Positions 12,923 to 15,785 of a stretch of DNA of 64,000 nucleotides are shown in pieces. The stretch spans positions 2,598,501-2,662,500 of the forward strand of contig NZ_CP021112.1 in NCBI RefSeq assembly GCF_002119765.1, read 5' to 3'. The first letter of the stretch is position 1. Each line of letters begins with the position of its first letter. The position numbers were made by a program, and so were the translations under genes. Below the pieces are notes generated by a model, which was not told where the DNA came from, did no database searches, and saw only the letters and a program-made list of their open reading frames with translations. Source of the DNA: Pseudorhodoplanes sinuspersici. GTDB lineage: Bacteria > Pseudomonadota > Alphaproteobacteria > Rhizobiales > Xanthobacteraceae.

Positions 12923-13219
12923 GCCGGCTTCTACACCGGGCCGGCCGGATTGGAAACCCGCCGGCCGCTGGAAATTTTACGAGACGAATGGTCAAGTGTG
13001 ATCGAAATATGGTTATCGACGTCGGTGGATACTGGAACTGGCGATGGACCCGGCCATGCGCCAGTGCCTCTTCCGCCGCAGGCCGATAGGGGCTGGGGAT
13101 GCAATGAAGGTCATGCCGACCGGAAAAAAACCACGTGGGCGCGGTTCGCACCGAACAGGACAAAACTGCACATGTTCGTCGCCATAGACCGTACCTAGAA
13201 GTTCGCCTTGTAGAGCTTG

Positions 13220-14302
13220 ATGACATCTTCATTCCCCAACGTCTCTCCCGCCTATCGCGACTTCCTCGCCGCCTTGCCCAAGGCCGAGCTGCATCTGCAT
13301 ATCGAAGGCACGCTGACGCCGGAGATGAAATGGCAGCTCGCCGGGCGCAACGGCGTGTCGCTGCCTTATGCCTCTATTGATGAGATGCGCGCGGCGCAGA
13401 ATTTCGAAGCGCCGGATGCTCCCGGCTATCTGAAAAAGTTCATCCAGCATTATAACGAGGGCATGTTGGTGCTGCGCACCGAGCGGGATTTCTACGACAT
13501 CACGCTGTCGCATCTCGCCCGCTGCCGCGATGAGACTGTGCGCTATGTCGAGATCATGTTCGACCCGCAGCCGCATCTGATGCGCGGTGTGCCGTTCGAG
13601 GCATTCTTTGCCGGCATGGATGAGGCGCGCCGTGTCGGCGCGCGCGATTATGGCGTCGAAAGCAACTTCATCCTGTGCATCAATCGCGATCTGCCGCTCG
13701 ACACCGCGCATCAGGCACTCGGTGCGGCGGCGCCGTTCCGCGATCGCATTGTCGGTTTCGGTTTGGATTCAGTTGAGGACGGCAATCCGCCGGCGAAGTT
13801 CACAGGTCTCTACGATCGGGCGCGGTCGGAAGGCTATCGGCTGACGGCGCATTGCGATGTCGATCAGCGCGATGCCGTCGGGCATATCCACGATTGCCTG
13901 AATCTCCTGAAGGTCGAGCGCATCGATCACGGCATCAACTGTATCGAGGATCCGGCGCTGGTGGATGTCCTACGCGAGCGGAAGATCTGCCTGACGGCAT
14001 GTCCGACATGGCGACCGATCGATGCAATGCCGCGCCGTGTCGATCGCATTCGCACGATGTATGACCTTGGTCTGAAGGTGACGTTGAATACGGACGATCC
14101 CGGCCTGTTCTTAAGCGGTACTTTGGGCACGCTGCTGCCGCCCGTCGCCGCCACCGGCAACTTCGCGCCGGCCGACATGGCCGCCTTCATGATCAACGCC
14201 TTCGAGGCCGCCTGGCTCCCGGCTGATCGGCGCACGCGTTATGTGGAGGAGGTGCGGATGTTTGCCGACTCACAGGCTTCGTCATTAAGTTCACTGTCGT
14301 AA
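13220..14302 (+). CDS. adenosine/adenine deaminase family hydrolase
   Basis: 360-residue TIM-barrel metal hydrolase of the adenosine deaminase family. The N-terminal metal motif is in LPKAELHLHIEGTL, which is closer to the bacterial/fungal adenine deaminase branch than to mammalian-type ADA. VERIDHGINCIED carries the catalytic His-Asp-His region and LNTDDP the last metal-ligand Asp. The usual HAGE segment, whose Glu is the proton donor, reads TAHCDVDQRDAV, so that Glu is missing. Substrate (adenine, adenosine or another N6-substituted purine) cannot be assigned. A TTG start at 13217 is adjacent to the ATG at 13220. Confidence 0.85.
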   Translation: MTSSFPNVSPAYRDFLAALPKAELHLHIEGTLTPEMKWQLAGRNGVSLPYASIDEMRAAQNFEAPDAPGYLKKFIQHYNEGMLVLRTERDFYDITLSHLARCRDETVRYVEIMFDPQPHLMRGVPFEAFFAGMDEARRVGARDYGVESNFILCINRDLPLDTAHQALGAAAPFRDRIVGFGLDSVEDGNPPAKFTGLYDRARSEGYRLTAHCDVDQRDAVGHIHDCLNLLKVERIDHGINCIEDPALVDVLRERKICLTACPTWRPIDAMPRRVDRIRTMYDLGLKVTLNTDDPGLFLSGTLGTLLPPVAATGNFAPADMAAFMINAFEAAWLPADRRTRYVEEVRMFADSQASSLSSLS

Positions 14303-14313
14303 CTGTAATCTCC

Positions 14314-14348
14314 GTCATGGCCGGGCTTGTCCCGGCCATCCACGTCTT
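14314..14348 (+). repeat. 35-bp palindromic repeat, copy 1
   Basis: The core ATGGCCGGG-CTTGT-CCCGGCCAT forms a 9-bp-stem hairpin. The whole 35-base unit is present again as an exact reverse complement at 14692-14726. Repeats of this GGCCGGGC..GCCCGGCC type are abundant in Bradyrhizobium-like genomes. The two copies bracket a decayed GIY-YIG nuclease gene. Confidence 0.85.
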
Positions 14349-14387
14349 CACTTCTTGTCATGAGACGTTGGATAGCGGCCGGAATTT

Positions 14388-14677
14388 TTAAAACAGCGAT
14401 TCATACAAATCGTCCCAATCGGGATTTTCTGCATGAATCAATCTTACTTTCCACGCACGCGGCCAATGCTTGATTGTCTTCTCACGCTGGATCGTCGAGC
14501 CAACGCCACCGTGCTTTCAAAGCATACAAGACGCTTTAATCCATATCGCTTCGTAAAGCCGTCAACCAAACTGGTTCGCTGTTCGTAAAGACGTTTCGGC
14601 TAATCGTTCGTGACGCCGACGTAAAGAATACTGTCGCGCCTGTTGGACATTATGTAAATGAAGCCAGATCGTTCCAT
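14388..14677 (-). pseudogene. GIY-YIG endonuclease pseudogene
   Basis: Reading the minus strand from the ATG at 14677 gives MERSGFIYIMSNRRDS, then ILYVGVTND, the start of a small single-domain GIY-YIG nuclease (COG2827 type). A TAG at 14600-14602 (codon 26) replaces the usual Leu after TND. The frame then gives YEQRTSLVDGFTKRYGLKRL, matching the family. A frameshift follows; in another frame it continues REKTIKHWPRAWKVRLIHAE and NPDWDDLYESLF to the TAA at 14388. One nonsense and one frameshift mutation therefore inactivate it. Total length (about 95 codons) equals the intact family. It lies between two inverted 35-bp repeats, 14 bases from one and 39 from the other. Confidence 0.85.
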
Positions 14678-14691
14678 CCAGCGAGTAAAGC

Positions 14692-14726
14692 AAGACGTGG
14701 ATGGCCGGGACAAGCCCGGCCATGAC
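14692..14726 (-). repeat. 35-bp palindromic repeat, copy 2 (inverted)
   Basis: Exact reverse complement of 14314-14348 across all 35 bases. It ends 14 bases upstream of the start codon of the GIY-YIG pseudogene. Confidence 0.85.
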
Positions 14727-14766
14727 GAAACAGAAATAGCTCGGACATCAAACCGGGCGGCCGGCA

Positions 14767-15084
14767 TTACCCTTCAAGCTCCCGATACACATCCATCTGC
14801 ACATTCGGCACCATCGCGCGCCACACCTGAAAATACGCCTGTACGCGCGGATCGGATGCAAGCGATTGCCGGTTCGCCTCGATCGATTCCGGCGCGTCGT
14901 ATTCGACGATCTGGATGATCTTCGTCGGGTCGTCGGCATTCTGCAGAAAGCGCACACGCATCTCGCCGAAGATGGTGGAATAGGGCGCAGTGTTCTTCAT
15001 CATGGCAAACAATTGCGCCGTGTCGGCGGAGGGCAATGTGAATCTGAAATGCAGGTAGCGGCGGACGGTCTTTTCGTCGGGCAT
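14767..15084 (-). CDS. small dimeric alpha/beta-barrel-like protein, function unknown
   Basis: 105 residues from the ATG at 15084. The frame extends to 15186, but that part has poor composition, and MPDEKTVRRYLHFRF looks like a natural N terminus. The pattern of an N-terminal strand, helix, then FLQNADDPTKIIQIVEYDAPESIEA and a final VPNVQMDVYREL strand resembles the ABM/ferredoxin-like small-protein fold. No catalytic residues can be named. Probably a single-gene unit. Confidence 0.65.
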   Translation of the reverse strand: MPDEKTVRRYLHFRFTLPSADTAQLFAMMKNTAPYSTIFGEMRVRFLQNADDPTKIIQIVEYDAPESIEANRQSLASDPRVQAYFQVWRAMVPNVQMDVYRELEG

Positions 15085-15785
15085 TGTTCTTGTCACTCCA
15101 GGGCGTAGCGCGCAGGCGTGAATGGGCGCACCAGCCGGGCACCAGCTTAGCCGCCGCAAGCCTGCCGCCAAGCCATCGCTTGACATTTTTTAAATATATG
15201 ACTATAGTCCTAACGCTTGATCCATGAGGGGCGCTTCGCGAGGCGTTCGCAGAGTGGGATCAGGCGCGGCGCCTGCGGGCGTGGTTCGCAGCCACGCGCT
15301 CGGGCGGCGCCGGGGCTCCGCCCGGGGTTACTAAGGACCCCCGCCAGGAGCTGGCTGACACGCGTCTGCTTTTGATGGCAGCGCGCGCGAAGCGCGGCCC
15401 GGCGCTGTATGAACGCCGCTGATGGCGCGCCGGAAGGCGGCGCGTGTCGCAGCCTCGTTTGCGCAATTTGCGCGGGCGGTCTGTGGTGCGCGCGATATTC
15501 AGGAATGACCTGCGCCGTCCGGCGCGTCATCTCCCCTCGCACGCGGAGGGAACAAGGCGTGAAAGGCGCACCCCGCGCCTCAAACAACAGGGGCGCTTTT
15601 GCACGTCCTGAGTGCGGTGTTGCGCTTTTCACAGCTGTGTTGCGGGAAATGAGCCATGTGGCGCGCACGCGATACCATCTGCAAATTTTGTTAACCTTAT
15701 CCCCGCACCGCACCGAAGCCCTTATACTTGCTATGAACTCCGTAACCGGGCGCCGCTTAGGGTGGGCGGCAGGGGGACTATGGAA
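15085..15785. other. 700-base non-coding stretch, hairpin-dense
   Basis: From about 15215 to 15600 the sequence is very GC-rich and full of short inverted repeats, for example GGGCGG/CCGCCC around 15301-15330 and GCGCGCGCGAAGCGCGG near 15385. The open frames on both strands here (up to 167 codons on the minus strand) are Arg/Pro/Ala-rich and lack ribosome sites, so I call them spurious. A short AT-rich segment at 15680-15730 before the MipA-family gene is the likely promoter area. Confidence 0.5.

Follow-up and report, generated by a model that had tools for sequence, protein, structure and literature searches.

In the RAYT/REPtron system, a small gene for a DNA-cutting enzyme, a tyrosine transposase of the HUH/Y1 type, lies within inverted hairpin repeats that carry a GTAG tag (GTAG REPs and REPINs), and the framing repeats are also dispersed as dimers and singlets. 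A second kind of tagged palindrome, the CGTC REP, occurs mainly in alphaproteobacteria and in five phyla altogether (Di Nocera et al. 2013, PMC3733652). The paper names no dedicated transposase or other enzyme for these repeats and describes no transposase gene flanked by them. It classes dRS3 of Neisseria as a CGTC-1 REP, gives CGTC REPs of families 3 and 4 a 9-bp stem opening A-T, T-A and a loop of 5, and names CGTC-3 as the family of Bradyrhizobium and Rhodopseudomonas. A third comparison is with GIY-YIG homing endonucleases of the I-TevI type, which share the catalytic domain (PF01541) of the gene described here and a location inside a possible target; at our locus, in contrast, no intron or intein was seen and the ends are hairpin repeats. 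The fourth is with Ssn, in which a small GIY-YIG enzyme likewise goes with a sequence repeated in the genome. Chenal et al. are reported to have described, in Nature Communications in 2025, Ssn GIY-YIG nucleases linked to repeats that are cut in single-stranded DNA, with the meningococcal enzyme reportedly cutting single-stranded DNA at such a repeat; the work reportedly concerns cutting and natural transformation, and framing of the gene by repeats may already be reported there. Among the open-licence PMC papers that our search listed, none linked GIY-YIG enzymes to REPs.

Here we describe a 415-bp unit in the alphaproteobacterium Pseudorhodoplanes sinuspersici that is like a RAYT/REPtron in having a small gene for a DNA-cutting enzyme within inverted, tagged hairpin repeats, which are also dispersed as dimers and singlets. 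It differs in that the enzyme is of the GIY-YIG type and the tag is CGTC. Because the framing recurs around related genes, the repeats follow the protein, homology mostly stops at the repeats and unit-less sites exist, we consider it probable that the locus is a dead copy of a RAYT/REPtron-like, mobile-type unit built on a GIY-YIG gene of about 95 codons, with CGTC REPs as its ends and a nuclease that would spread the palindromes.

A broken GIY-YIG gene lies between inverted hairpin repeats

In the window, by which we mean the whole 64,000-nucleotide stretch analyzed, the unit occupies 14313..14727 and as a whole has no strand. Its left terminal repeat (14313..14348, plus strand) opens with an unpaired CGTC tag (14313-14316), followed by a stem-loop (14317-14339) with a 9-bp stem that starts A-T, T-A, has 0 mismatches and closes on a 5-nt loop. 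A short CCA tail and an inner extension come next, with the tail pointing towards the gene. The right terminal repeat (14692..14727, minus strand) is the exact reverse complement of the left, with the mirrored tag at 14724-14727 and its tail likewise towards the gene. The arms are thus 36 nt each, 100% complementary in inverted orientation and spaced by 343 nt. Folded as DNA, each arm gives a hairpin of -12.6 kcal/mol (z -5.45), which none of 200 shuffles matched, and a search of the window for the 23-nt core, allowing up to 3 mismatches, returned 2 occurrences, both exact (expected 0.00).

Between the arms, on the minus strand, is a GIY-YIG nuclease pseudogene (14388..14677) whose unbroken relatives have about 95 codons. 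Pfam matches it to GIY-YIG with 26.1 bits, against a cut-off of 22.6, across one internal TAG. Aligned with its relatives, the first part runs in a single frame from the ATG at 14677 to about 14525, with the TAG at 14600-14602, and the second part runs from about 14513 to 14394 in a different frame, placing the frame change between about 14525 and about 14513. Between the ATG and the right repeat there are 14 bases, and 39 bases separate the stop (14388-14390) from the left repeat. With a stop and a frameshift, the window copy is a broken gene that does not encode a working enzyme, and in this it differs from Ssn. The first-pass annotation had described a decayed GIY-YIG gene separated by 14 and 39 bases from two exact inverted palindromic repeats, each itself a hairpin, and all of this was borne out, except that its repeat length of 35 nt was one short.

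Both neighboring genes are outside the unit. On the left, an adenosine-deaminase-like gene, so named by eye (13217..14302, plus strand), ends 10 bases short of it, and on the right is an ORF at 14767..15186 (minus strand). The adenosine-deaminase-like gene has no close counterpart in 118 other genomes of the family: matches at E ≤1e-60 were found in 9 of the 118, at only 39-41% identity.

The arms resemble CGTC REPs

The window arms share the tag, stem, loop, CCA tail and inverted dimers of the CGTC REPs described by Di Nocera et al. 2013 (PMC3733652), and they are probably CGTC REPs of family CGTC-3. Families 3 and 4 are equally compatible with this stem and loop; family 3 is favored because the paper names it for Bradyrhizobium and Rhodopseudomonas. 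The difference is that no dedicated transposase appears in that paper, whereas here two of the repeats enclose a nuclease gene.

Repeat copies are few in the genome. The 21-nt core was found at 12 places in 5.97 Mb with at most 1 mismatch; 6 of these are exact and 2 are the window arms, while a backward control gave 0. Four of the 12 places (L001, L005, L007 and L009) have a close inverted partner, 23-29 nt away by the ends that our script assigned, and the tails of the partners face each other. The window-type repeat is therefore both dispersed and present as inverted dimers, as CGTC REPs are, and the window gene, like RAYT genes, has inverted copies of a dispersed REP on its two sides. This genome also holds solo double-headed palindromes (L010, 1496-1526, and its variant L008, 1497-1526). 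They have the tag at both ends and no CCA tail, like the solo at a gene-less site on two Sphingobium plasmids described below.

Inverted repeats frame many small GIY-YIG genes

We surveyed the surroundings of GIY-YIG genes in two sets of loci, counting a gene as flanked if an inverted repeat with a score of at least 18 lay within 250 bp (15 in a looser cut), and using positions of equal size elsewhere in the same stretches as controls. The first set began with 134 GIY-YIG matches in 41 related genomes; 41 matches with open frames of more than 500 residues (UvrC-like) were dropped, leaving 93 loci. Flanking repeats were found at 44 of the 93, as compared with 3 of 3968 controls, and at the looser cut these counts were 52 of 93 and 12 of 3968. 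The second set was the best 80 of at least 583 named relatives, mostly from alphaproteobacteria, with some from beta- and gammaproteobacteria and a few from elsewhere; it may have a few loci in common with the first, such as those of G004. Here 51 of 80 loci were flanked (controls, 11 of 1710). Median unit lengths were 407.5 bp and 398 bp, respectively. The same repeat density around unrelated genes had been set out in the first-pass annotation as a result that would speak against its reading, and the density we measured around the control positions was far lower.

A second result named there as contrary was that intact homologues mostly lack flanking repeats. Framing prevails among relatives defined by the motif GxxYxG[VM][TI] outside the YVGWT clade, 30 of which were flanked among 46 loci (the other 16 score below 18, some of them at contig ends), but not across the superfamily: 49 of the 93 loci, slightly over half, lack a strong pair, and in the YVGWT clade flanking repeats were found at 0 of 16 loci. 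Two loci of UvrC length had repeat scores of 0 and 11. By eye, no clear repeat frame was seen in the 600 bases read around the GIY-YIG gene of a Rhizobium tumorigenes plasmid (L264). Tag orientation varies: both arms have their tags pointing outward in 22 of the 44 and 34 of the 51 flanked units and inward, facing the gene, in 3 and 5, the script having scored 19 of 44 and 12 of 51 units as one-sided or uncalled.

Six GIY-YIG matches come from the window genome itself, one of UvrC length and one (L013) in the unflanked clade. A further one, L014, is a small GIY-YIG gene without a stop that has one copy of an inverted GCGACGAAGCAATCCAT pair on each side. L018 (G000:C1:1421150-1421299) is an apparently frame-shifted gene, its match covering profile positions 26-77 only, and it is flanked by inverted CGTC-1-like hairpins of a type that differs from the window's. 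L017 (G000:C1:1965520-1965669) is a GIY-YIG gene with a stop, and its different, TCATCCTGAGG-type repeat pair is on the 3′ side only.

Repeat type follows protein relatedness

An unbroken relative of the window gene scores 51.1 bits to GIY-YIG, and Pfam finds in it GIY-YIG alone, with no HUH/Y1 transposase domain. PHROGs has no family for this window-type relative, and NCBIfam gave no match above its curated cut-off. Catalytic-type residues, which we presume to be those of the active site, are invariant in 16 aligned relatives. A homologue from Neisseria gonorrhoeae is 51% identical to a window-type relative over 95% of its length, and its gene is framed by dRS3 cores, of which 11 lie within 2.27 kb; this gene is reportedly that of Ssn.

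We placed on a tree the 86 domains of the first set without an internal stop (7 of the 93 have one and were left out; some of the 86 are partial). Neighbors on the tree that come from different genera often carry a like repeat type, inner extension included. The window-type repeat has the form CGTCATGGCCGGGC...CCACGTCTT; other types on the tree are ...CATCCCGCTTAGG, ...CAATCCATGA, CGTCATTCCGGGGC...GGAATCCATAACC, ...CGACCCAGTA, TTCGTCCCCGCGAAGGCGGGGACCCAG and TCATCCTGAGG. A poor match to the repeat of the nearest neighbor was also seen, for example at L098, L106 and L125. In a Mantel test on the 48 loci with a repeat score of at least 15, protein identity correlated with repeat similarity (r 0.53; 0 of 5000 permutations as high, the largest reaching 0.20, in a permutation that ignores shared sites and descent), and the correlation was r 0.52 when restricted to between-genome pairs. 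In another genome, G019, 74 pattern matches belong to one repeat family (GTCATTCCGGG...CCCGGAATCCATA) whose ends are constant and whose inner parts are very variable and, by eye, often self-complementary, as if an enzyme read the ends alone.

Between the number of repeats and the presence of the cognate gene there is only a moderate link. Repeats of type A, the window type, number 7-60 copies in 8 genomes of the family scored as having a clade-A gene, pseudogenes being counted too, versus 0-37 copies in 17 genomes without one (p 0.0025). The same test for type F was weak (p 0.048), and both p-values are optimistic because the genomes are related. One genome, G023, has 37 type-A repeats, yet no clade-A gene was found there.

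These results bear on whether REPs simply accumulate between genes and flank a nuclease gene by accident. Two spacers discussed below, parB-holA and truA-dapE, do collect many repeat kinds, as such a hotspot would. The scarcity of flanking pairs at control positions and in the YVGWT clade, together with a repeat type that tracks protein relatedness, argues the other way. As a general account, chance is ruled out by both control sets (3 of 3968 and 11 of 1710) and the Mantel result, and we regard an explanation by chance or hotspot as extremely improbable.

Homology mostly ends at the repeats

Nine window-type units from eight genomes and six genera were compared, with flanks of 200 bp, except that the contig end cuts one flank of L104 to 47 bp. 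Long alignments among them were 66-82% identical, and those spanning the full unit were mostly bounded within about 10 bases of the repeat ends. At L082 and L104, which come from one genome and are 82% identical, homology runs 15-46 bases further, and at L074 the repeat finder had overshot the ends by about 12 bases. The window unit gave single long alignments with L074, L092 and L124, ending a few bases from 14313 and 14727, and aligned in pieces with the other five units. The neighboring genes differ for most window-type units, L124 and L094 both being located at parB-holA.

Terminal inverted repeats that bound the homology are what an insertion sequence has. We set aside an ordinary insertion sequence, however, because the compared units included no near-identical full copies at separate sites, the closest pair within one genome being L082 and L104, and because no target-site duplication was found, the filled and empty flanks (Azospirillum, Sphingobium) being too diverged or REP-bearing.

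Related sites occur with and without the unit

Unit-less sites in sister strains, for which the first-pass annotation had proposed a search, do exist for relatives of the window unit, whose presence or absence at a single site was seen in Azospirillum (sufB-sufC), Sphingobium (fnrL) and Bradyrhizobium (truA-dapE). In Azospirillum lipoferum, the sufB-sufC spacer contains a REP dimer, the gene and another REP dimer. In five other Azospirillum strains this spacer is about 32-129 bp with no CGTC REP by eye, and in three of the five the flanks are 95-97% identical.

Seven Sphingobium plasmids have a unit between fnrL and a response-regulator gene, and three of these were read in detail. Among other Sphingobium plasmids, two have a solo double-headed palindrome at the unit's exact place, two more have other sequence, and one that is more distant is without a REP. 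In the solo, the outer halves of the left and right repeats are joined to each other. Since the left and right repeats share the direct word ACCCCGGG, slippage out of a unit and insertion into a palindrome would both explain it. For the unit of a Rhizobium CIAT894 plasmid, only the right flank was common to other records (39 listed of 61). Two records labeled as plasmids, L309 (NZ_CP119142.1) and L271 (CP090106.1), are 2.2 and 3.7 Mb long, the size of main chromosomes, and the gene content of L271 also resembles that of a main chromosome.

At truA-dapE we took the best 30 of 78 Bradyrhizobium loci, of which 27 were readable and 3 lacked the right flank. Sorted by pattern, the readable alleles show the gene plus a dimer in 3 cases, a CCACG dimer in 5, a CCAGTA dimer in 12 and a solo in 2, leaving 5 with none or something else; one of these last five, L286, has a dimer by eye. 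In L287 the two dimer halves, which are unequal, are fused into a hybrid solo, and this suggests deletion.

These site states also bear on a scheme in which the palindromes were there before the nuclease gene and spread in some other way, and a homing-type GIY-YIG parasite that cuts solo or dimer REPs was copied into them, using REP halves as its arms. GIY-YIG is a known homing-nuclease fold, and such homing could account for the solos at the exact place of the Sphingobium unit and for the Bradyrhizobium gene alleles, which resemble a REP dimer plus one REP plus the gene. However, slippage out of the unit would leave solos too, the five Azospirillum relatives show no CGTC REP by eye at the site, and at 15-36 bases the arms would be short for copying by homology. 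We regard homing into REPs as unlikely and prefer the reading that the nuclease would spread palindromes of its own.

At parB-holA, where 60 genomes matched, we took the best 30. The stretch lacked parB in 7 of them, which left 23 readable spacers, and the 19 of these up to 800 bp were read. Four hold GIY-YIG genes with, by eye, four different repeat types, L173 holds a dimer and no gene, and ten, 0-224 bp long, show no REP by eye. In one genome (L152, G078; 812-1342) the site holds a gene for a Y1, RAYT-like transposase (Pfam 23.4 bits, cut-off 23). This gene is framed by inverted GTAGGGTGGGCAAAGG-type repeats, which are of the GTAG type, and a CGTC REP adjoins. It lends some color to the idea that CGTC dimers are moved in trans by a RAYT or some other transposase, the nuclease gene being a passenger captured between two REPs. 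Against this, nuclease clade and repeat type go together in a framing survey made up of GIY-YIG loci, and Di Nocera et al. 2013 (PMC3733652) report no transposase gene flanked by CGTC repeats. We find a passenger gene very unlikely, and we return to a GIY-YIG nuclease as the enzyme that would spread the repeats.

The window-type gene in Bradyrhizobium

A search of 79 Bradyrhizobium genomes with a window-type gene, with up to 9 candidates scored in each genome, gave at least 16 matches in at least 14 genomes at E ≤1e-20. All 16 matches are flanked by repeats, with scores of 19-37. Together with six named loci they fall into five site clusters, the largest of which contains 10 of the 16 matches. 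In G184, an 83-bp remnant in this common cluster is 89% identical to an intact gene elsewhere in the same genome, and G177 has two copies about 9 kb apart. The pattern looks like slow movement with long vertical retention and decay. Sharing of sites, both in the cluster of 10 and by L124 and L094 at parB-holA, looks like vertical descent with loss, or else a hotspot.

What appears to be long residence at a single site, the low copy number per genome and the lack of recent copies among the compared units would all suit a nuclease that the host has domesticated, one that controls uptake, recombination or repair of single-stranded DNA at its repeats, as is reported for Neisseria Ssn. Its gene would lie among its sites for regulatory reasons or by descent, and the unit would be immobile. 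Several observations are harder to reconcile with immobility: the same type of unit stands beside different genes in several genera, its homology mostly stopping at the repeats; unit-less sites occur in species whose flanks are 95-97% identical; and the window genome carries a broken gene at the window site and apparently two further broken ones elsewhere. We judge domestication to be rather unlikely and retain the view that these are mobile-type units whose nuclease would spread the palindromes.

Discussion

The first-pass annotation had proposed that nuclease and palindromes form one mobile unit reminiscent of RAYT/REP pairs. As an architecture this is well supported, by the framing of 44 of 93 loci (controls, 3 of 3968) and 51 of 80 (11 of 1710), by a repeat type that tracks protein relatedness, by homology that mostly stops at the repeats and by the unit-less sites. 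As for movement, neither near-identical full copies among the compared units nor target duplications at the compared sites were found. The loci present defined unit ends, a pairing of nuclease clade with palindrome type, sites that lack the unit, and dimers and solos at the same sites. We infer that the palindrome is recognized, nicked and copied, and that its spread is driven by the nuclease. Most likely, a working nuclease would recognize its own palindrome type in single-stranded, hairpin-folded DNA and nick the hairpin. Repair or replication restart at such nicks could occasionally copy the whole unit elsewhere or, alternatively, the unit's two ends alone, giving a REP dimer, and the target could be another intergenic place or an existing REP. 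Slippage between the two palindromes would remove the gene and leave a solo double-headed palindrome. In this scheme, the GIY-YIG enzyme would be to CGTC REPs what RAYT transposases are to GTAG REPs. As the window copy is dead, any movement of its repeat type in this genome today would depend on a different enzyme.

More tentatively, we hypothesize that small GIY-YIG nucleases in general may be the dedicated mobilizers of CGTC REPs, with a clade-specific palindrome code, two inverted copies of the palindrome ending a unit of about 400 bp, and a cycle of gene unit, dimer and solo; we hold this to be possible rather than probable. Beyond the Ssn work as reported, the present analysis adds the unit ends, the alternative states of a site and the identification of the ends as probable CGTC REPs. 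Nuclease clades that track palindrome types provide named candidates, and a direct assay, for the missing enzyme of the CGTC REPs. They also offer many combinations of an enzyme with its hairpin target for work on nucleases that act specifically on single-stranded hairpins. If the hypothesis is true, the REPtron would have been invented a second time, independently, on a homing-type nuclease and not a tyrosine transposase, and bacterial hairpin-repeat populations would have arisen at least twice around unrelated enzymes.
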